Source: Luteibacter rhizovicinus
GTDB lineage: Bacteria; Pseudomonadota; Gammaproteobacteria; Xanthomonadales; Rhodanobacteraceae
Reading direction: 5' to 3'
Assembly (NCBI RefSeq): GCF_004342265.1
Contig: NZ_SMCS01000007.1
Coordinates: 124,001-188,000, forward strand
DNA: 64,000 nt
Below are positions 15,860 to 24,648 of the stretch, one piece after another. Under the pieces are notes generated by a model, which was given only the letters and a program-made list of their open reading frames with translations, did not search any database and was not told the origin of the DNA. How positions within the stretch are numbered: the first letter of the stretch is position 1; each line of letters opens with the position of its first letter. A program made the position numbers and the translations under genes.

Positions 15860-15889
15860 TTGACAGCCGGCCCTGCACCAGCCTAAGTT
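15860..15889 (+). promoter_or_regulatory. Promoter of the threonine operon
   Basis: A perfect -35 TTGACA (15860-15865) is followed after 18 bp by TAAGTT as -10. Transcription would begin at about 15895-15897, which coincides with the leader-peptide ATG. There is no purine-rich ribosome-binding site between -10 and ATG, so the message may be leaderless. Confidence 0.6.
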
Positions 15890-15895
15890 CAACCC

Positions 15896-16042
15896 ATGTA
15901 TCTCCCCGCCCACGCCCATAGCTCCAAGCCAGCCGTCCATACGGCAGGCAAGCTCGCGTCCGGCGCTCGTTCCATCACCGCCACGTCCACCACGACCACG
16001 ACGACTACCACCGTCCTGGGACGGGAGCACGTGCGCGACTAG
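15896..16042 (+). CDS. thrL: Threonine operon leader peptide (attenuator peptide)
   Basis: A 48-residue open frame whose middle reads SITATSTTTTTTTTV: ten Thr codons (ACC, ACG, ACT) in thirteen positions, plus Ile and Val. It ends 101 bases before homoserine dehydrogenase. This is the hallmark of a thr attenuator peptide: stalling at Thr (and Ile) codons reports low charged tRNA. It is longer than the enterobacterial ThrL and has a long non-repetitive N-terminal half. No function beyond regulation is expected. Confidence 0.85.
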   Translation: MYLPAHAHSSKPAVHTAGKLASGARSITATSTTTTTTTTVLGREHVRD

Positions 16043-16138
16043 GTTTCAGTCGCAACCGGCCCCGCCCTCGCAAGGGATGGGTCCGGTGCTCGGCACACGA
16101 AACTTCTCCCACGCGAACAGGGGCCTCTCACCGGAGGC
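16011..16138 (+). promoter_or_regulatory. Threonine attenuator region with three candidate hairpins
   Basis: CCGTCC-TG-GGACGG (16011-16024) lies right after the Thr codons and would be disrupted or freed by a stalled ribosome. A 14-bp imperfect stem, ACCGGCCCCGCCCT with its partner ending GTCCGGT (16055-16087), is the terminator candidate but lacks a T tract. GCCTC/GAGGC (16123-16138) hides the GGAGG ribosome-binding site of the first structural gene. Control could therefore be at translation initiation as well as termination; which is used is not decided by sequence. Confidence 0.55.
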
Positions 16139-16143
16139 AACCC

Positions 16144-17292
16144 GTGTCCAGCGTCATCGCAGTACCCGAAAGTCCTTATCTTCGCGCTCCGCGGCGCGCG
16201 TTGGCGTCCCCACTCGTCGTCCATATCGGCGTGATCGGCCCCGGCAAAGTGGGCACCGCCCTGCTTGCCCAGCTCAAGGACGCAGCCCCCCGGCTCCTCC
16301 GCGATGCGGGCCTGTCCCTGCATCTGCGTGCCGTCACCGACAGCAGGCACATGTGGCTGGACTGCGACGACGAAGCCCTCAACGGCCGCGCCCACGGCGC
16401 GCAGACCTGGCGCCCCGCCGATCTCGACGCCTTCGCGGCGTACGTGCGTGGCGAGGGCAACGCCGTGGCGCTGCTGGCCGATTGCAGCGCCAGCGATATC
16501 GTCGCGGACCACTACCCGGTCTGGCTCGGCGCGGGCATGCACGTCGTGACGCCGAACAAACGCGCCGGCAGCGGAGATATCGCGCGCTGGCACGCCATCC
16601 ACGAGGCGGCCGCCGCCGGATCGGCGCATTTCGGCTACGAAGGAACGGTCGGCGCCGGGTTGCCGGTGATCCAGACGCTGCGGGATCTGCTAGACACGGG
16701 CGACGAACTGGTCGCTGTCGAAGGCATGCTGTCGGGCACGCTGGCGTGGCTTTTCAACCGTTACGACGGCAGCATGCCCTTCTCCGCGCTGGTGCGCGAA
16801 GCCCATGACCTGGGCTATACGGAACCGGACCCGCGCGAGGACCTTTCCGGCGTGGACGTGGCGCGCAAGCTGGTGATCCTGGCGCGCGAAGCGGGCCTGA
16901 AACTCGCCCTGAAGGACGTGCGGATCAGCAGTCTCGTCCCGGCACACCTGGCGGAAGTGTCCCGCGACGAATTCATGGAAAGAATCGGCGAACTCGACGG
17001 CGCCATGATCGTCCGCCACGCCAGCGCCGCGGCAGCCGGCGGCGTGCTGCGGCACGTGGCGAGACTGGACCGGACCGGCGCGTCCGTCGTCCTGGAGCGC
17101 GTGCCGCGCGACCACACGTTCGCCAATGCGCGCCTGACCGACAACGTGCTGCGTTTCTCCACACGCCGTTACTGCGACAATGCACTGGTCGTGCAGGGTC
17201 CGGGTGCCGGTCCGGAAGTCACGGCCGCGGCGGTCTTCACCGATCTGCTGCGCGTGGCCGGCGCGATGGGAGTAAAACGATGCGCATGCTGA
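16144..17292 (+). CDS. Homoserine dehydrogenase, monofunctional
   Basis: A 382-residue enzyme reducing aspartate-semialdehyde to homoserine. [13 protein letters not shown] is the NAD(P)-binding loop. [34 protein letters not shown] and [25 protein letters not shown] are typical of the ThrA/MetL dehydrogenase half, including the catalytic Asp and Lys. It lacks the aspartokinase domain found fused in many gammaproteobacteria, and also the C-terminal ACT domain of stand-alone Hom. The start is GTG with GGAGG seven bases upstream. First structural gene of the threonine operon; its end overlaps the kinase start. Confidence 0.9.
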
Positions 17293-18233
17293 AAGAAACC
17301 TTCTCCGTTCCGCGTGCCGACATGGCCAGCGCGGAGGCCTTCGCAAGCGTCGGCAACGTCGGCATCGGATTCGACATTCTCGGGCACTGCGTAGCCGGCG
17401 CGGGCGATCGCGCCGACGTGCGGCGCATCGACGAACCCGTCGTCCGCATTGCCAGCATCGACGGCGTGGTCCTCGACCTTCCGCTGCGCGCCGAAGACAA
17501 CACGGCCGGTGCGGCACTGATCTCCCTCCGCCGCGCGCTCGACCTGCCCTTCGGCTTCGAACTGACGCTGCACAAGGGCATCGCGCTCGGGTCCGGCATG
17601 GGCGGTTCCGCGGCTTCCTGTGTCGCCGCGCTCGTCGCCGCCAATGAATTGCTGGACGAACCGCTGTCGCGCGAAGCGCTGTATCCGTACGCGCTGGATG
17701 GCGAAGCGGTGGCCAGCGGCAGCCGGCATGGCGACAACCTCGGACCCATGCTGCTCGGCGGGCTGGTGCTCTCCACGCACGACCGGCTCGTCCGCATTCC
17801 GGTGCCCGCCGAATGGCATTGCGCGCTGGTGCATCCGCACTACGTGCTGGAAACGCGACGCGCCCGCGCGGCGCTGGCCGGTTCGTACGAACTGGGCAAC
17901 TTCGTTGCGCAGAGCGCCAATCTGGCGCTGGTCCTCGCAGGCTGCTATCGAGGCGAAGCGGCGCTGGTGCGCGAAGGACTTTCCGATGTACTCGTCGAAC
18001 CGCGTCGTGCGCCGCTTATTCCCGGTTTCGCGCAGGTGAAGCAGGCCGCGCTGGACCATGGCGCGATGGGCGCCAGTATTTCCGGCGCGGGACCGAGCGT
18101 ATTCGGCTGGTTCGAGGATGCGGGCAGCGCGGAGCGCGCCTCGCTCGCGATGGCCAGCGCGTTTGCCGATGCCGGTTATGCCAGCGACAGACTCGTCGCC
18201 CCCGTCGACGGCCCCGCCGCCAGGGTGGGTTGA
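17280..18233 (+). CDS. thrB: Homoserine kinase (GHMP type)
   Basis: A 317-residue GHMP kinase phosphorylating homoserine. The ATP loop is [16 protein letters not shown], and the C-terminal glycine motif is [15 protein letters not shown]. The ATG overlaps the preceding gene by 13 bases; another ATG two codons later is possible. Length and motif order match ThrB. Confidence 0.92.
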
Positions 18234-18235
18234 CC

Positions 18236-19540
18236 ATGCGCTTCGTCAGTACCCGCGGCGGTGCCGCGGACGCCAGCCTTTCCGAAGCCATCAACGCCGG
18301 GCTCGCACCCGATGGCGGACTCTACGTTCCGGCGAACATGCCAATACTGGATCCGGCGACCTTTGCCGAAGGCGATTCGCTTGCGCAGACTGCCGAACGC
18401 CTGCTGGCACCGTTCTTCGCGGGCGATCTTCTCGCATCCGAACTGCCCGCCATCTGCGCGGAGGCCTTCGCGTTCGACGCACCGCGCAGAAAACTGGCGA
18501 TGCCCGCCACGCACCTGCTCGAGCTGTTCCATGGCCCCACGTCCGCATTCAAGGACTTCGGCGCGCGCTTCCTCGCCGCATGCATGCGGCGGTTACGTGC
18601 GGGAACCGACCGTCCGCTCACCATTCTTGTCGCCACATCCGGCGACACCGGCGCGGCGGTCGGCGCGGCTTTCCATCGGGTGCCCGGCATTCGCGTTGCC
18701 ATTCTCTATCCCGATCGCCGGGTCTCGCCCCGGCAGGCACACCAGTTGGGAAGCTTCGGAGGCAATGTGGATGCGCTGCGTGTGTCCGGCAGCTTCGACG
18801 ATTGCCAGCGCATGGTGAAAGCGGCGCTCGGCGACCGCGACCTGCAAGCCTCTACGCCGATGAGTTCCGCCAATAGCATCAGCCTCGGACGTCTCCTGCC
18901 CCAGATGGCGTATTACGCCCATGCCGCGCTGGCCCACCGGCGCGCCAGCGGCGAGACATTGAATGTGATCGTTCCCACCGGGAACCTGGGCAACGCCGTG
19001 GCCTGTCTTTGGGTACGCGCCATGGGTCTGCCGATAGGCGAGGTCGTCTTCGCCTGCAACGCGAACGACACACTGCCCCAGTTCTACGCCGGTTCGCCAT
19101 ACCGGGGGCGCGACGCCATCGCGACGATCGCCAATGCGATGGACGTGGGCGCGCCAAGCAACTTCGAACGTTTGGCTCATCTCTTCGGCGGTGAAAACGA
19201 AGCGCGCGCGAAAGGTCATGCGGAAAGCGTCGACGATGCGGAAATTCGCGACGTCGTACTTCGCTATGCGCGCAGCGATGGCGACATTTTCTGTCCCCAC
19301 ACGGCAACGGCGATACGCGTCCTCGAACGCCGCCGCCTGGCGGGCGACACCCGCGCGTGGACCGTTGTCGCCACGGCACATCCGGCAAAATTCGACACCA
19401 TCGTCGAACCGCTGGTCGGCCGCACTATAGACGTGCCGCACGCGCTGGGCGCGATGCTTCGCCGGGATGCCTTCGCCGCGCCGATGGCGGCCGATACCGA
19501 CGTATTTCGCCGCTGGCTAAGAAGCCACACTCCCCTGTAG
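18236..19540 (+). CDS. thrC: Threonine synthase
   Basis: A 434-residue PLP enzyme converting O-phosphohomoserine to threonine. GPTSAFKDFGARF carries the PLP lysine; ATSGDTGAAVGAAF and VPTGNLGNAVA are phosphate- and PLP-binding loops. The N-terminus MRFVSTRG is the classic family start. The ATG is two bases after the thrB stop. It closes the threonine operon; an imperfect hairpin lies at the stop codon. Confidence 0.94.
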   Translation: MRFVSTRGGAADASLSEAINAGLAPDGGLYVPANMPILDPATFAEGDSLAQTAERLLAPFFAGDLLASELPAICAEAFAFDAPRRKLAMPATHLLELFHGPTSAFKDFGARFLAACMRRLRAGTDRPLTILVATSGDTGAAVGAAFHRVPGIRVAILYPDRRVSPRQAHQLGSFGGNVDALRVSGSFDDCQRMVKAALGDRDLQASTPMSSANSISLGRLLPQMAYYAHAALAHRRASGETLNVIVPTGNLGNAVACLWVRAMGLPIGEVVFACNANDTLPQFYAGSPYRGRDAIATIANAMDVGAPSNFERLAHLFGGENEARAKGHAESVDDAEIRDVVLRYARSDGDIFCPHTATAIRVLERRRLAGDTRAWTVVATAHPAKFDTIVEPLVGRTIDVPHALGAMLRRDAFAAPMAADTDVFRRWLRSHTPL

Positions 19541-19568
19541 GAACGCGTGCAAGCGCACTTCTACAGGG
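19533..19568. repeat. Degenerate REP-like hairpin at the thrC stop
   Basis: CCCTGTAG (19533-19540) pairs with CTACAGGG (19561-19568) around GAACGCGTGCAAGCGCACTT, which continues the stem imperfectly. It resembles a decayed single arm of the 137-bp elements. It covers the stop codons of both thrC and the convergent small gene, so it may separate the two transcripts. Confidence 0.5.
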
Positions 19569-19785
19569 AAGGCTCGCTTCGATGTCGAGCCGCAGCCTGC
19601 CGCTGGGCGTCTTGCCTGAAATAGATCAAAGAGAACCCACAGACAAGCAGGTAGCAAATCGCTCCTACTACAAAGAACACAGCGTCATGATCGACGTTGT
19701 CGAACTGCCCCCTATCAGACATGGCTAACAACGTAAGCGCAAACCCCACACAGCACGCAAGCCAGCTTTTCACCCAGTCCTTCAT
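19561..19785 (-). CDS. Small two-helix membrane protein, unknown function
   Basis: A 74-residue protein, MKDWVKSWLACC..., with two hydrophobic segments (about residues 8-24 and 36-57) joined by a polar loop (DRGQFDNVDHD). It has a basic, hydrophilic C-terminus. The ATG follows GAGGGA by five bases. It is not recognised as a member of a named family. Convergent with thrC. Confidence 0.6.
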   Translation of the reverse strand: MKDWVKSWLACCVGFALTLLAMSDRGQFDNVDHDAVFFVVGAICYLLVCGFSLIYFRQDAQRQAAARHRSEPSL

Positions 19786-19912
19786 ACGTCCCTCGCTCAC
19801 CTGAAATGAAGGCTGCCGTGCCTTCCTGCGGACCAGGCAATCTAACGGGCGCGATTGCGCGTGGCTGTCGGGCTAGTCTGAAAACAGAGTCCATCGTTGC
19901 GCAGGCACCCCT

Positions 19913-20049
19913 GTAGGAGCCCGCTTGCGGGCGAAAACCAACGAAGCGGAGATGCCGTGCGTGACATCCGCAGCCAGAACACCGGGCTCGCGAAGGTGAG
20001 CATCCATCTTCCCCGCCCTGTTGGCTTTCGCCCGCAAGCGGGCTCCTAC
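19913..20049 (-). repeat. 137-bp dispersed repeat, copy 2 (arms GCCCGC/GCGGGC)
   Basis: Same inverted-repeat ends as copy 1, but the asymmetric core is in the opposite orientation (it reads ...ACATCCGCAGCC...CGGGCTCGC...GTGAGCATCC on the plus strand). One arm differs by one base (GAAAACCAAC). It occupies most of the gap between the small membrane protein gene and argS; nothing else is seen there beyond the argS -10. Confidence 0.9.
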
Positions 20050-20085
20050 ATGGAGAGAGCGCGTACCGCGGAATCCCCTAGCCGC

Positions 20086-20091
20086 TATCAT
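20086..20091 (+). promoter_or_regulatory. Candidate -10 box for argS
   Basis: TATCAT lies 30 bases before the argS start. The -35 position (GTACCG) is a poor match, so this is a weak call. Confidence 0.3.
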
Positions 20092-20121
20092 CCCCGGTCG
20101 AACTCCAGGGAAATAAACGCC

Positions 20122-21879
20122 ATGTCGCACCACTCCGACGCCACGCTGGCCAGCCGGGTCGACCGTCTGCTGGAGGCCGCTTTCCGCGCCTGCGGACTGC
20201 CGGCCGATACCGCGCGCTCGGTGCCGGCCTCGCGGCCGGAGCTTGGCGACCTGCAGTGCAACGGAGCGATGCCGCTGGCGAAAACACTGGGGCGTCCGCC
20301 GCGCGATATCGCCAGCGATGTCGCCGCGAAACTCCGCGACGATGCCGCATTCGAATCCGTCGACATTGCCGGTCCGGGCTTTATCAACCTGCGCCTTTCG
20401 ACCACGTTCCTGGCTACCAGTGCCGAAGACCAGTTGGCGACCGACGATGCAGGCATCGTCCGCCAGAATGCACAACGCGTCCTCATCGACTTCGGCGGTC
20501 CGAACGTTGCCAAACCGCTGCATGTCGGCCACCTGCGTTCGCTGGTGATCGGCGAGAGTCTTCGCCGCATTCTCGGCGCGCTGGGACACCACACCATCGG
20601 CGATGTGCATCTGGGCGACTGGGGTCTGCAGATGGGCATGCTGATTGCCGAAATCCGCCGCCGCTGGCCCGACCTTCCCTGCTTCCTGCCCGAACCGGCG
20701 CTGCCGGAAGGCTCGCTTCCGTTGGGCATGGACGACCTGCAGAAGCTGTATCCGGAAGCCGCTGCCGCCTGCAAGGCCGACCCCGCACGGATGGAAGAAG
20801 CCCGCGAGGCCACCGCCGCATTGCAGGCCGGGCATGTCGGCTACATGCTGTTGTGGCGCGCGATCCGCACGATTTCGCTGGACGCGCAGCGTCGCGATTT
20901 CGACTCGCTCGATGTGCATTTCGACGTGCTGCTCGGCGAAAGCGACGTGCAATCGCTGATTCCCGGCATGCTGGACGATCTGCGCCGCCGCCATATCGCC
21001 GTCGAAAGCGAGGGCGCGCTGGTGATCGAAGTCGCGGAAGCGTCGGACGGTAAACCGATGCCGCCGCTGCTGGTGGCCAAGTCGGACGGTGCGGCACTGT
21101 ACGCCACGACCGATCTGGCGACGATCCTCGACCGCGCAAAGCGCGACAAGCCCGATCGCATCGTCTATGTCGTGGATCAGCGCCAGGCGTTGCACTTCGA
21201 GCAGGTGTTCCGCGCCGCGCACCGCGCCGGCTATGCCGACGGTATCGAGCTGTTCCATGCTGGCTTCGGTACGGTGAACGGCCCCGACGGCAAGCCGTAC
21301 AAGACCCGGCAAGGCGGCGTGGCCCAGTTGGGCGACCTGCTCAGCGACGCAATCGACAAGGCCCGGGAACGGCTGGCGGAAAACACCGAGGTGGACGACC
21401 GCGAGGCCCTGGCCCGCCTCGTCGGCATGGCCGCCATCAAATTCGCGGACCTGTCGAGCTACCGCACCTCGGGCTATATCTTCGATCCCGAACGCATGGT
21501 CTCCTTCGAGGGCCGCACCGGTCCCTACGTGCAATACGCGTGCGTGCGCATCTGCTCGATCCTCGGCCGTGCCATCGAACGCGGTGCCGCGACCGGTGCC
21601 ATTGTCGTGGATGCCCCGGCGGAACGCGCGCTGGTCCTCGACTGCGCCCGCTTCCCGGACGTAGTGACCTCGGCGGCCGCGAACCTCGCACCCAACGAAA
21701 TCGCCGACTACGTCTTCGGCCTGGCCCAGACCTTCAGCCGCTTCTACAACGAATGCCCGGTGCTGGCAGCAGACGCCGAAGCCACCCGCGCGTCGCGTCT
21801 GGCGCTGTGCGCGCTGACGCGACAGGTGCTTGCGAAGGGTCTGTGGCTGCTTGGGATCGCGGTTCCGGAGCGGATGTAG
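20122..21879 (+). CDS. argS: Arginyl-tRNA synthetase
   Basis: A 585-residue class I synthetase charging tRNA-Arg. KPLHVGHLRSLVIG (HVGH at residues 134-137) is the HIGH signature. The KMSKS position carries KTRQGG (from Lys394), a variant usual for ArgS. The N-terminal Add-1 domain and C-terminal DALR anticodon-binding domain are of normal length. The ATG giving MSHHSDATL was chosen because CAGGGA precedes it and longer readings run into the repeat. Monocistronic. Confidence 0.95.
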   Translation: MSHHSDATLASRVDRLLEAAFRACGLPADTARSVPASRPELGDLQCNGAMPLAKTLGRPPRDIASDVAAKLRDDAAFESVDIAGPGFINLRLSTTFLATSAEDQLATDDAGIVRQNAQRVLIDFGGPNVAKPLHVGHLRSLVIGESLRRILGALGHHTIGDVHLGDWGLQMGMLIAEIRRRWPDLPCFLPEPALPEGSLPLGMDDLQKLYPEAAAACKADPARMEEAREATAALQAGHVGYMLLWRAIRTISLDAQRRDFDSLDVHFDVLLGESDVQSLIPGMLDDLRRRHIAVESEGALVIEVAEASDGKPMPPLLVAKSDGAALYATTDLATILDRAKRDKPDRIVYVVDQRQALHFEQVFRAAHRAGYADGIELFHAGFGTVNGPDGKPYKTRQGGVAQLGDLLSDAIDKARERLAENTEVDDREALARLVGMAAIKFADLSSYRTSGYIFDPERMVSFEGRTGPYVQYACVRICSILGRAIERGAATGAIVVDAPAERALVLDCARFPDVVTSAAANLAPNEIADYVFGLAQTFSRFYNECPVLAADAEATRASRLALCALTRQVLAKGLWLLGIAVPERM

Positions 21880-21998
21880 CTCCACAACAAGGCATCCCCT
21901 ACACCTGAAGTTGTATTTCGCCCCGGGAAAGCCAGGTCTAGTGTCGTCTCCTGGTAGCACGTCGTCGACGTGCTACCCGCACCCACGGGAGACGAATC

Positions 21999-22172
21999 AT
22001 GACCAAGAGAGCTTACGAAGACGCATACGACGAGGGTATTCCGTACATCGAGGCTTCGGGTGGCGACCCGGAGGACGAGGATGAGGAAGAGCTCAACCCG
22101 CCCGATAAAGAGAACGACTTCTCAGGGGGCAAGCAAGTGCCAGAGTACGATCAAGGTAACTTGCCCCGATGA
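21999..22172 (+). CDS. Small acidic protein, 57 residues, unknown
   Basis: MTKRAYEDAYDEGIPYIEASGGDPEDEDEEEL... is highly acidic, with a run of Asp/Glu around residues 25-31 and no membrane segment. GGGAGA stands eight bases before the ATG. It looks translated but belongs to no family recognised here. It has its own short gap on each side. Confidence 0.55.
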   Translation: MTKRAYEDAYDEGIPYIEASGGDPEDEDEEELNPPDKENDFSGGKQVPEYDQGNLPR

Positions 22173-22319
22173 CCGACGTCATCGGCTGCGATATTCCGCG
22201 CGCCGATAACCCATAGAAACAGGCAACAACAGGATACGGATGGATTTTCGCCCGGGCCATCGGGTTGAATAGGATGATCGTGGCGTGACCGGGCGCATAA
22301 AGCGCTTGAGAAAAACTTC

Positions 22320-22350
22320 TTGACCTCAAGCGCACTCGAGGTCGTAGAGT
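22320..22350 (+). promoter_or_regulatory. SoxR/MerR-type promoter-operator with 19-bp spacer
   Basis: -35 TTGACC and -10 TAGAGT are separated by 19 bp, the stretched spacing used by MerR-family activators. The spacer region holds the dyad CCTCAAGCGCACTCGAGG (22324-22341), which differs from the SoxR box CCTCAAGTTAACTTGAGG only in the centre and one arm base. The -10 ends 43 bases before the ATG of the next gene. No MerR-family gene is in the window. Confidence 0.7.
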
Positions 22351-22393
22351 CACGCCCATCCTCCCTCTTGCCCGCACGGAGAGCCCCTCCCAG

Positions 22394-22678
22394 ATGTTCA
22401 AGTTATCCATCAGCTCGAAGACCATCAAACCACAGGAAATCGCGGGCACATGGGTGACCGCGCATGGGTATGTCCGCCAGGAACTGCGGGTCGACGGGCG
22501 CTACGACGAGGCTCGTGGCTTCCGTACGTCGGCGTATCGCGGAACCTGGACCGTTACCGGTAACCGAATCGATTATCTCGACGATCTGGGTTTCACCGCC
22601 CAGGCCGAAGTGATCGACGGCGTGCTTCACCACGCTGGCATGCGCCTTTACCGCGTCGATAGCGGCATCGCCGCCTGA
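22394..22678 (+). CDS. Atu4866-like small protein
   Basis: A 94-residue protein matching in style the Atu4866 family: GTWVTAHGYVRQELRVDGRYDEARG, then YRGTWTVTGNRIDYLDDLGFTAQAEVIDGVLHHAGMRLYR. Those proteins fold as small beta-barrels and often accompany redox enzymes; their biochemical role is not established. It stands alone behind a SoxR-type operator, suggesting induction by redox-cycling compounds. Confidence 0.7.
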   Translation: MFKLSISSKTIKPQEIAGTWVTAHGYVRQELRVDGRYDEARGFRTSAYRGTWTVTGNRIDYLDDLGFTAQAEVIDGVLHHAGMRLYRVDSGIAA

Positions 22679-22808
22679 GAGTAGCCAGAAACGCTCGTCG
22701 CCAGACCAAGCCCCACGCATCTCACGTAACAAGCGGCTTCGACGACAAGACCACTCGAAAACAATTGGCCGTCCAGACGTCCTGGCAAAAAAGTTTCGGC
22801 CGAAAGTG

Positions 22809-22838
22809 TTGACAGCTACTGACGGACTGACATACGGT
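22809..22838 (+). promoter_or_regulatory. Promoter of the branched-chain amino acid operon
   Basis: TTGACA (22809-22814), an 18-bp spacer and TACGGT as -10. The predicted start, about 22844-22846, falls on the leader-peptide ATG. The design is the same as for the threonine operon: consensus -35, weak -10, no Shine-Dalgarno before the leader. Confidence 0.6.
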
Positions 22839-22845
22839 CGACAAC

Positions 22846-22977
22846 ATGACGCAGCGCACCACCAGCCGCAACGCCCTAATCAACCGTCTCCCGACGGTCG
22901 GCGTTCCGCTGCGTCTTCGCGGCCTCCTTCTTCTTGCCCTTGTACTCGTACTTATTACCAGCGGAGGTGCGGGGTAA
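22846..22977 (+). CDS. Leu/Val/Ile leader peptide of the branched-chain operon
   Basis: A 43-residue frame containing GLLLLALVLVLITS, eleven branched-chain residues in twelve positions. The codons there (CTC, CTT, GTA, ATT) are ones the neighbouring GC-rich genes seldom use, which would sharpen ribosome stalling. The stop codon lies inside the antiterminator sequence. Its only likely role is to sense charged Leu, Val and Ile tRNAs. It resembles ilvL/leuL peptides in role but not in sequence. Confidence 0.88.
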   Translation: MTQRTTSRNALINRLPTVGVPLRLRGLLLLALVLVLITSGGAG

Positions 22978-23050
22978 GGGCGCTCAGGTGTAAATAAACC
23001 AACCTGACAACTCAAAACCCCGCACCCGGTAACGGATGCGGGGTTTTTTT
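22966..23050 (+). terminator. Transcription attenuator: antiterminator plus Rho-independent terminator
   Basis: The terminator is AAAACCCCGCA (23014-23024) paired with TGCGGGGTTTT (23037-23047), extended by CCG/CGG around a GTAA loop and followed by a run of Ts. The competing antiterminator is GGTGCGGGGT at 22966-22975, perfectly complementary over 10 bp to ACCCCGCACC at 23017-23026. A ribosome stalled at the Leu/Val/Ile codons leaves 22966-22975 free to pair, so transcription continues. One that reaches the stop codon covers it and the terminator forms. Confidence 0.92.
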
Positions 23051-23061
23051 TGGAGTGGAAA

Positions 23062-24648
23062 ATGACAGCAGCAGAGCAAAACCAGGCCACCGAAAGCGCG
23101 GAAAGCGACGTAGGCGGACGCGTGAAGATCTTCGACACGACGTTGCGCGACGGCGAACAGGCGCCGGGCTTCTCCATGGACCGGAGGGCGAAATTGCGCA
23201 TGGCGCATGCCCTGGAAGACCTGGGCGTCGACATCATCGAAGCAGGATTCCCGCAAGCCTCACCCGATGATTTCGCCGCCGTGTCCGAAATCGCCAGAGC
23301 GTTGCGACAACCTACGGTCTGCGCACTGGCACGATGTCAGGACGGCGATATCGATAGTGCGGGACGCGCACTGGAACCGGCCCAACGCTCTCGTATCCAT
23401 CTGTTTCTGTCCACCAGTCCGCTGCATCGCGAGCACAAGCTCGGCAAGAGCAAGAACGAAGTCATCGACATAGCAGTAAACGCCATTCGCCGCGCAGCCA
23501 GCGTGTGCCACGAAGTCGAATTTTCCGCAGAAGACGCCCTGCGCACCGAACCCGACTTCCTCGTCGAAGTGTTCAACGCCGCGATCGAAGCCGGCGCCAC
23601 CACGCTGAATGCCCCCGACACCGTCGGCTACGTCACCCCCTTCGAGATCTTCGACCTGTTTACGTATCTGCGCAAAAACGTGCGCGGAGCGGAACGCGTC
23701 GTCTTTTCATCGCACTGTCACGACGACCTGGGCATGGCGGTCGCGAATAGTCTCGCCGCGATCAGCGCCGGTGCGCGGCAGGTGGAATGCACGATCAACG
23801 GTATCGGCGAACGCGCCGGCAACGCCGCGCTGGAAGAAGTGGTCATGGCGCTGCACACCCGCGCGCCGCACTTTCGCATGGACACCGGTATCGTCACCCG
23901 GAATCTGTATCCGACCTCGCGCCTGCTCGCGCAGGTGACGGGGCAGCCTGTCCCGCGCAACAAAGCGATCGTCGGCGACAACGCGTTCGCCCACGAATCG
24001 GGCATTCACCAGCACGGCATGATGAAGCATCGCGGCACGTACGAAATCATGCGGCCGGAGGACGTTGGCGCAACGACATCGCTGGTGCTTGGCAAGCATT
24101 CGGGTCGTCATGCGCTGCGTCAGCGCGTGACCGATCTGGGTCACACCCTCGACGAAACCGCACTGGACGTCGTGTTCGAACGCTTCAAGGCACTGGCCGA
24201 TCGCAAGCGCACGGTGACCGACGAAGACATCGATGCCCTGGCTAGCGGCGTCGATCCCGAGCATGCCGGTCCATGGCGTTTCACCCATCTTCATACCAGC
24301 TCGCATCTGGGCGGCGGCGCCTCCGCGTCGTTGAAGCTGACGCACGAAGACGGCCACACCGTGAGCGAAGCCGCCATCGGCGAAGGCCCCATCGACGCGA
24401 TGCTTCGTGCCGTGGAACGTGCAACCGGCGAGAGCATTTCGCTGGAGGATTTCAACGTGAGCGCTGTAAGGGAAGGCGGCGACGCAGAAGGTCATGCAAC
24501 CCTGACAGCGCGGCACGACGGCAGCACCTATCGTGGCAGCGGCGTCAGCACGGACATCATCGAGGCAACCGCGCAGGCCGTGCTTTCCATCGTCAACCGC
24601 ATCGCGCGCAAGACGCCTCGTCTCGCCGCAACGGCAGCCCATTCGTAA
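23062..24648 (+). CDS. leuA: 2-isopropylmalate synthase
   Basis: A 528-residue enzyme condensing acetyl-CoA with 2-ketoisovalerate, the first committed leucine step. FDTTLRDGEQAPGFSM is the family signature; FSSHCHDDLG supplies the metal His pair; NGIGERAGNAALEEV follows. The C-terminal third (from about residue 390) is the LeuA allosteric domain expected to bind leucine. ATG was chosen over an in-frame TTG at 23050 because GGAG lies six bases before it and the TTG is inside the terminator. First structural gene of a nine-gene operon. Confidence 0.95.
   Translation: MTAAEQNQATESAESDVGGRVKIFDTTLRDGEQAPGFSMDRRAKLRMAHALEDLGVDIIEAGFPQASPDDFAAVSEIARALRQPTVCALARCQDGDIDSAGRALEPAQRSRIHLFLSTSPLHREHKLGKSKNEVIDIAVNAIRRAASVCHEVEFSAEDALRTEPDFLVEVFNAAIEAGATTLNAPDTVGYVTPFEIFDLFTYLRKNVRGAERVVFSSHCHDDLGMAVANSLAAISAGARQVECTINGIGERAGNAALEEVVMALHTRAPHFRMDTGIVTRNLYPTSRLLAQVTGQPVPRNKAIVGDNAFAHESGIHQHGMMKHRGTYEIMRPEDVGATTSLVLGKHSGRHALRQRVTDLGHTLDETALDVVFERFKALADRKRTVTDEDIDALASGVDPEHAGPWRFTHLHTSSHLGGGASASLKLTHEDGHTVSEAAIGEGPIDAMLRAVERATGESISLEDFNVSAVREGGDAEGHATLTARHDGSTYRGSGVSTDIIEATAQAVLSIVNRIARKTPRLAATAAHS

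Follow-up and report, generated by a model that had tools for sequence, protein, structure and literature searches.

A 64,000-nt stretch of the Luteibacter rhizovicinus genome (contig NZ_SMCS01000007.1, positions 124,001 to 188,000; hereafter, the window) carries two short open reading frames (ORFs) encoding amino acid leader peptides, one upstream of the threonine (thr) genes hom-thrB-thrC and the other upstream of leuA, the first gene of a leucine/valine/isoleucine (leu/ilv) cluster. Comparison of the sequences makes it very probable that each site is a ribosome-mediated attenuator with a leader peptide translated from a leaderless transcript. The genus is placed by NCBI in the Rhodanobacteraceae, Lysobacterales, and the nearest same-genus relative of the window genome is Luteibacter sp. 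Sphag1AF (83% protein identity).

The original prediction described one design for both sites: TTGACA, 18 bp, a weak TAnnnT, 6–7 nt and then the leader ATG. This design was found exactly, at 15860–15898 and 22809–22848, and the claimed lack of a Shine-Dalgarno (SD) sequence was borne out as well, none being seen before either leader ATG. If the A of the ATG is +1, the −10 hexamer ends with its T at −7 or −8, and the hexamer precedes the start codon by 6 and 7 nt, within the 6–8 nt placement expected of leaderless mRNAs. The −10 sequence is itself weak and variable; relatives carry TAACGT, TACCGT and others at the position of the thr −10. The leader peptides are MYLPAHAHSSKPAVHTAGKLASGARSITATSTTTTTTTTVLGREHVRD (thr) and MTQRTTSRNALINRLPTVGVPLRLRGLLLLALVLVLITSGGAG (leu/ilv).

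Comparison of the promoters in relatives shows the layout to be kept. Among 37 family genomes searched, 36 have a thr-type hom gene (G023 has a paralogue only), and all 36 have a Thr-rich leader with its ATG 35–38 nt after TTGAC. All 35 leu loci fetched from the family share this layout, and G011, the 36th LeuA-bearing genome, has it according to the strict pattern described below. The distance was preset in the thr and leu counts; in a repeat test without a preset distance, where leader ORFs were selected by composition alone, TTGAC again preceded the leader ATG by 35–38 nt in every family locus, both thr (30/30) and leu (30/30). A further collection of 80 thr loci on named contigs, from genera including Lysobacter, Luteimonas, Stenotrophomonas, Xanthomonas, Pseudoxanthomonas, Dokdonella, Rudaea, Tahibacter and Arenimonas, gave 71 loci with such an ORF, 70 of them with TTGAC at this distance (56 of 57 once 14 duplicates of family loci are set aside). 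Nine of the 80 have no such ATG ORF, five of these having less than 1.6 kb of upstream sequence. A GTG stands in place of the ATG in L218, the sole miss, at 36 nt, and in L162 at 38 nt. The TTGAC-to-ATG distance thus stays at 35–38 nt across many genera although spacer and peptide vary: thr leaders range in length from 22 to 52 aa, with the ATG always at the promoter, so the distance is independent of peptide length, which argues for the ATG as the start.

Outside the family (f1), the layout recurs upstream of ilvC in 3/3 genomes of family f2 and upstream of ilvC-leuA in 2/2 of family f7. A thr leader was found in 3 of 14 non-f1 regions fetched, all f2, and in none of the other 11. Upstream of leuA, a branched-chain amino acid (BCAA) leader was found in 2 of 15 regions (f7) and none in 10 of 15, with candidates in the f4 genomes G059 and G039 and a doubtful one in G051. 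Upstream of ilvC, leaders were found in 3 of 12 (f2) and 2 of 6 (f7) regions and not found in 9 of 12 and 4 of 6. With no leader found in most regions of the distant families, the evidence covers only part of the order.

The predicted +1 on the ATG is strongly supported at both leaders by the conserved distance, the GTG substitutions and the base at −1, which is a pyrimidine in 71/71 family leaders (36/36 thr and 35/35 leu; C in 68) and C or T in 56 of 59 new thr loci. With the A of the ATG as the putative +1, this is a pyrimidine-purine start context. The longest exact match to the SD core between −20 and −4 is 0–3 nt in 51 of the 71 family leaders. RNA polymerase at the TTGACA/TAnnnT promoter would initiate at A15896 and A22846, the first base of each leader ATG; the 5′-terminal AUG would recruit a ribosome without SD pairing; and that ribosome, stalled on the Thr codons or on the Leu/Val/Ile codons, would steer folding of the downstream RNA.

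The frequency of the arrangement was assessed with a strict pattern, TTGACAN{17,18}TANNNTN{6,8}ATG, controlled by dinucleotide shuffles, by the same pattern read backwards and by moving the ATG to 26–28 nt; the survey covered TTGACA-type promoters with ATG starts. The window has two matches and 100 dinucleotide shuffles of it have none. In the whole 4.47-Mb genome there are three matches, two of which are the thr and leu leaders, compared with none for the backwards pattern and two when the ATG is moved 20 nt on (26–28 nt). The box TTGACAN{17,18}TANNNT occurs 14 times, against 10 for its backwards form, so the box alone is hardly above chance; only three of the 14 have an ATG at leaderless distance, two being these leaders, and one of the other 11 precedes a tRNA-Leu. 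The third match (L137 1501–1610; G000:C5:300553), which may be due to chance, has a 23-codon frame at its ATG and a 468-aa frame beginning 95 nt downstream of the −10. At two more of the other 11 sites (L318 and L321), long frames of 218 and 160 aa open at a GTG 8 nt after the −10, and an alternative ATG start lies 32 and 44 nt after the −10; these are possible GTG leaderless genes.

Several observations weigh against leaderless attenuation at the two sites. A generic sigma-70 scan reports no promoter at either, because it needs four of the six TATAAT bases and both −10 hexamers match three. SD-like matches of 4 nt occur upstream of 10 of the 71 family leaders and matches of 5 nt upstream of another 10, at least some of them falling, as judged by eye, within the −10 hexamer (TAAGG), and a spacing of 6–8 nt from −10 to ATG may allow a start 1–3 nt upstream. 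In 23 Luteibacter genomes the shifted control (ATG 26–28 nt after the −10) gives 45 matches, leaving no excess in number for the leaderless distance. A T5 run follows the thr leader in none of the 36 family loci and in one of 59 new thr loci, the exception, L221, seemingly being a different leader; the thr site therefore does not have the U-run of an intrinsic terminator. Lastly, equilibrium folding of 81 sequences shows no change in exposure of the hom SD between a stalled and a finished ribosome (mean unpaired probability 0.19 when stalled, 0.20 at the stop and 0.19 without a ribosome; higher by more than 0.1 when stalled in 3/81 and at the stop in 9/81).

A start 1–5 nt upstream of the ATG would leave a stub too short for an SD, and translation would still be SD-independent. 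The TTGAC-to-ATG distance does differ by up to 3 nt among loci and most leu leaders (29/35) have a purine at −2, whereas the invariant pyrimidine at −1 is what a pyrimidine-purine start on the A predicts, and −2 is also C or T in 30/36 thr leaders, making the A the better start there; we regard the short stub as quite unlikely. Conventional leadered transcripts, with the real promoter at least 20 nt further upstream and the TTGACA box either secondary or not the operon promoter at all, are most improbable. The poor −10 hexamers and their rejection by the generic scan would fit them, but TTGAC is conserved at a near-fixed distance from the ATG across genera despite the variable spacer, and most leaders are without a strong SD between −20 and −4.

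The two leaders might also be unremarkable samples from a lineage in which leaderless starts are simply common, as in actinobacteria. Lineages of this kind exist, Corynebacterium glutamicum with a reported 33% of leaderless mRNAs (PMC3890552) and Streptomyces lividans with 17% (PMC8079986), and the GTG frames of L318 and L321 go uncounted by an ATG pattern. The counts, which cover promoters with TTGACA, make this unlikely. Besides the scarcity of ATGs at leaderless distance among the 14 strict sites of the window genome, the 23 Luteibacter genomes give 54 strict matches (one for the backwards pattern), of which the thr and leu leaders supply 46, two per genome, and other sites eight. The 45 shifted-control matches, read by eye, consist of 22 from one recurring ordinary-leader promoter, 15 that arise at another ATG inside the leu leader, and eight that are sporadic. 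The eight other strict matches equal the eight sporadic control matches and are therefore background only, with no genome-wide habit visible. It is the recurrence of the same sites, not the number of matches, that sets the two leaders apart, and among strong −35 boxes in Luteibacter the promoter-on-ATG layout appears to belong to them. The recurring control promoter has the form TTGACA...TAGCTTTTGC...GACGGGGAAC...ATG with an ordinary leader, and is present in 22/23 Luteibacter genomes (G000:C2:88257–88316).

The suggestion that leaderless leaders are a general rule in this lineage therefore needs narrowing: many related genera follow it at their thr and BCAA leaders, and these two account for 46 of the 54 strict matches in Luteibacter. 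A scan confined to the regions upstream of hisG, pheS and trpE, with pheA and other possible attenuators left aside, gave no His-rich leader in 30 hisG loci (18 Luteibacter), no Phe leader in the 16 Luteibacter loci among 26 pheS loci and no convincing Trp leader in 26 trpE loci (16 Luteibacter). Two ORFs considered as His leaders overlap a short gene before hisG and were rejected by eye, and W-containing ORFs upstream of trpE were likewise judged by eye to be chance. The short gene before hisG (L084 1100–1500), read by eye, looks like a TrpR-type regulator.

Downstream of its start the leu leader appears to be an ordinary attenuator. The leader ORF with the regulatory codon run LLLLALVLVLI precedes leuA, as does its counterpart in 35/35 fetched family loci. 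As read from the sequence, CCCCGCACC can pair either with GGTGCGGGG, where the ORF ends, or with TGCGGGG before the T8 run, giving a mutually exclusive antiterminator and U-tailed terminator; in 34/35 family loci a T5 or longer run is found no more than 117 nt past the leader stop. At leuA, stalling would choose between the two. The first bases of the leader (GACGCAGCG) can in addition pair with CGCTGCGTC about 50 nt on, in a stem that would close the mRNA right behind the AU of the start codon. Nucleotides 3–11 are mostly paired in 30/35 leu leaders, compared with 6/36 thr leaders; 25/35 scores exceed the 95th percentile of shuffled queries, where the best-partner search favours pairing. The stem is clear only in Luteibacter and a few genera, is poor in several others, and has changes on both sides in G032 and G029. 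LeuA itself is 528 aa in the window and 402–408 aa from the match start in four other Luteibacter loci (L051, L053, L056 and L063); 21 of 22 same-genus matches stop at query residue 393–402, and the part missing from the shorter proteins is the LeuA_dimer allosteric domain (residues 385–514).

The thr leader is Thr-rich and has competing hairpins, as in the threonine operon attenuator family of Rfam (RF00506), although the Rfam Thr_leader model scores it at 14.6 bits against a gathering cut-off of 55 (E. coli thrL, 122.1). Pairings were tested with shuffles that keep the relatedness among sequences. Region 3 pairs with the leader end in 86.3% of 541 cells, with 11 double-change cells, and 0/500 shuffles reach the paired percentage, the double changes or the covariation score, while 82 and 287 reach the changed-pair and pair-type counts. 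Pairing of region 3 with the strand that covers the SD behaves similarly (79.8% of 639 cells, 18 double-change cells; 0/500 for the same three measures, and 249 and 217 for the changed-pair and pair-type counts). Pairing of region 3 with region 4 is weaker, at 79.1% of 617 cells: a slid control scores higher, and the double-change count and covariation score are reached by 14/500 and 27/500 shuffles. In 75/81 sequences the hom/thrA SD core has at least 3 of its 4 nt paired in the minimum free energy fold of the last 40 nt, with a mean z of only −1.39, and a consensus fold of the whole leader was uninformative on the alignment used. At hom, then, related hairpins are present and the U-run is missing, and the outcome of stalling would probably be Rho-dependent termination or control of initiation at the hidden SD. 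Given the missing U-run together with the unchanged SD exposure in folding, several outputs are kept as candidates: attenuation may act through Rho, through a U-less terminator or through initiation control. The hom gene of the window encodes homoserine dehydrogenase alone; the corresponding frame exceeds 800 aa in G026, G030, G035 and the majority of the more distant genomes, a length that suggests fusion to aspartokinase.

Textbook enterobacterial attenuators use leadered mRNAs. E. coli K-12 thrL and ilvL resemble the leaders described here in their regulatory codons, and related hairpin sequences are seen at thrL (GTGCGGG / CCCGCACC), but TTGAC lies 79 nt from the ATG at thrL compared with 36 nt here, the nearest TTGAC before ilvL is 365 nt away, and the thrL hairpin, unlike that of the thr leader here, is followed by a T run. 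Polycysteine leaderless short ORFs of mycobacteria are reportedly the subject of Canestrari 2020, and Sinorhizobium meliloti, the source of the rhizobial precedent for leaderless attenuators, is an alphaproteobacterium. That precedent, cited in the original prediction, is correct according to the available text: the ATG of the leader ORF forms the 5′ end of the trpL attenuator RNA, as predicted here, but the leader is a 14-aa Trp peptide, and peptide and RNA also act in trans (PMC7298713). In mycobacteria, where a candidate cysA2 upstream ORF is described (PMC4633059), leaderless short ORFs are similarly reported as amino acid-responsive attenuators, though for cysteine.

Further parallels come from Streptomyces and Corynebacterium. 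The portion of the S. lividans study available lists leaderless amino acid leaders (leuL1, leuL2, trpL1, trpL2, ilvL, thrL and metL) that, like those here, encode short peptides with regulatory codons, and leuL1, trpL2 and thrL share with the thr leader here the lack of a typical U-rich terminator (PMC8079986). They differ in belonging to another phylum and in length (12–29 aa, compared with 43–48 aa here); thrL precedes thrS and leuL2 precedes leuS, in an organism where leaderless mRNAs make up 17% of all. The BCAA leader of C. glutamicum ilvBNC is also treated as a leaderless mRNA, with an H1 hairpin reported to prevent the start of translation, as proposed for the leu 5′ stem; the model there has three hairpins including H1, whereas the 5′ stem here is clear only within the limits given above (PMC11857589). 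Among the literature matches listed, none described leaderless attenuators for Xanthomonas, Stenotrophomonas or the order, most subscription papers being outside the search. It is well supported by sequence that leaderless attenuator peptides, already known from actinobacteria and rhizobia, now include the thr and BCAA leaders of these related genera.

Attenuation needs a ribosome close behind the polymerase. If the leaderless reading is true, a broad group of genera with leaderless thr and BCAA leaders makes the role of the 5′-AUG in attenuation directly testable. Such leaders would have been kept without visible genome-wide leaderlessness, and the layout offers a simple rule for finding them. 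The near-complete absence of a U-run from the thr attenuator, with a conserved hairpin over the next SD, is a second testable departure. A wider reading, rather doubtful when its parts are taken jointly, is that amino acid attenuators as a class moved to 5′-AUG initiation here, so that the ribosome loads as the first bases emerge; that the leu stem beginning at nucleotide 3 then shuts the 5′ end, allowing about one ribosome per transcript; and that the thr attenuator lost its intrinsic terminator and acts instead at the hidden hom/thrA SD, on translation or on access by Rho.

Table 1. Features of the thr and leu/ilv leader regions (window positions).
Feature	Position	Strand	Basis or remark
thr leader promoter, −35 hexamer TTGACA	15860..15865	+	base-by-base sequence check
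thr leader promoter, −10 hexamer TAAGTT	15884..15889	+	18 nt after −35; then CAACCC (6 nt) and ATG at 15896
thr leader peptide ORF	15896..16042	+	48 aa, 8 consecutive Thr codons; predicted +1 is A15896
GC-rich hairpin 3′ of thr leader	16055..16087	+	terminator position, without U-run
Hairpin GCCTC...GAGGC over hom SD	16123..16138	+	SD core paired in 75/81 sequences
hom, homoserine dehydrogenase	16144..17292	+	382 aa, GTG start, GGAGG upstream
thrB, homoserine kinase	17280..18233	+	
Open frame, later part thrC, threonine synthase	17813..19540	+	match from residue 215; true start inside frame
leu/ilv leader promoter, −35 hexamer TTGACA	22809..22814	+	sequence; TTGAC kept in 30/30 family loci
leu/ilv leader promoter, −10 hexamer TACGGT	22833..22838	+	18 nt after −35; then CGACAAC (7 nt) and ATG at 22846
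leu/ilv leader peptide ORF	22846..22977	+	43 aa, LLLLALVLVLI; predicted +1 is A22846
Possible 5′-end stem, 22848–22856 / 22907–22915	22848..22915	+	weak or lacking in a number of genera
Region 2 (GGAGGTGCGGGG), antiterminator half, end of leu leader ORF	22963..22974	+	read from sequence; relatives similar
leu attenuator terminator, stem-loop plus T8	23018..23051	+	
leuA, 2-isopropylmalate synthase, first leu/ilv cluster gene	23062..24648	+	

Downstream of leuA, the cluster continues with an aminotransferase gene, leuC, leuB, ilvD, ilvC and a gene for a thiamine pyrophosphate (TPP) enzyme. Upstream of the leu/ilv site, a near-perfect dyad at 22320–22350 (TTGACCTCAAGCGCACTCGAGGTCGTAGAGT) lies in a promoter-like stretch with a 19-bp spacer, ahead of an Atu4866-family gene at 22394; it resembles what we take to be the operator motif of SoxR/MerR-type regulators and is a candidate for such a site.

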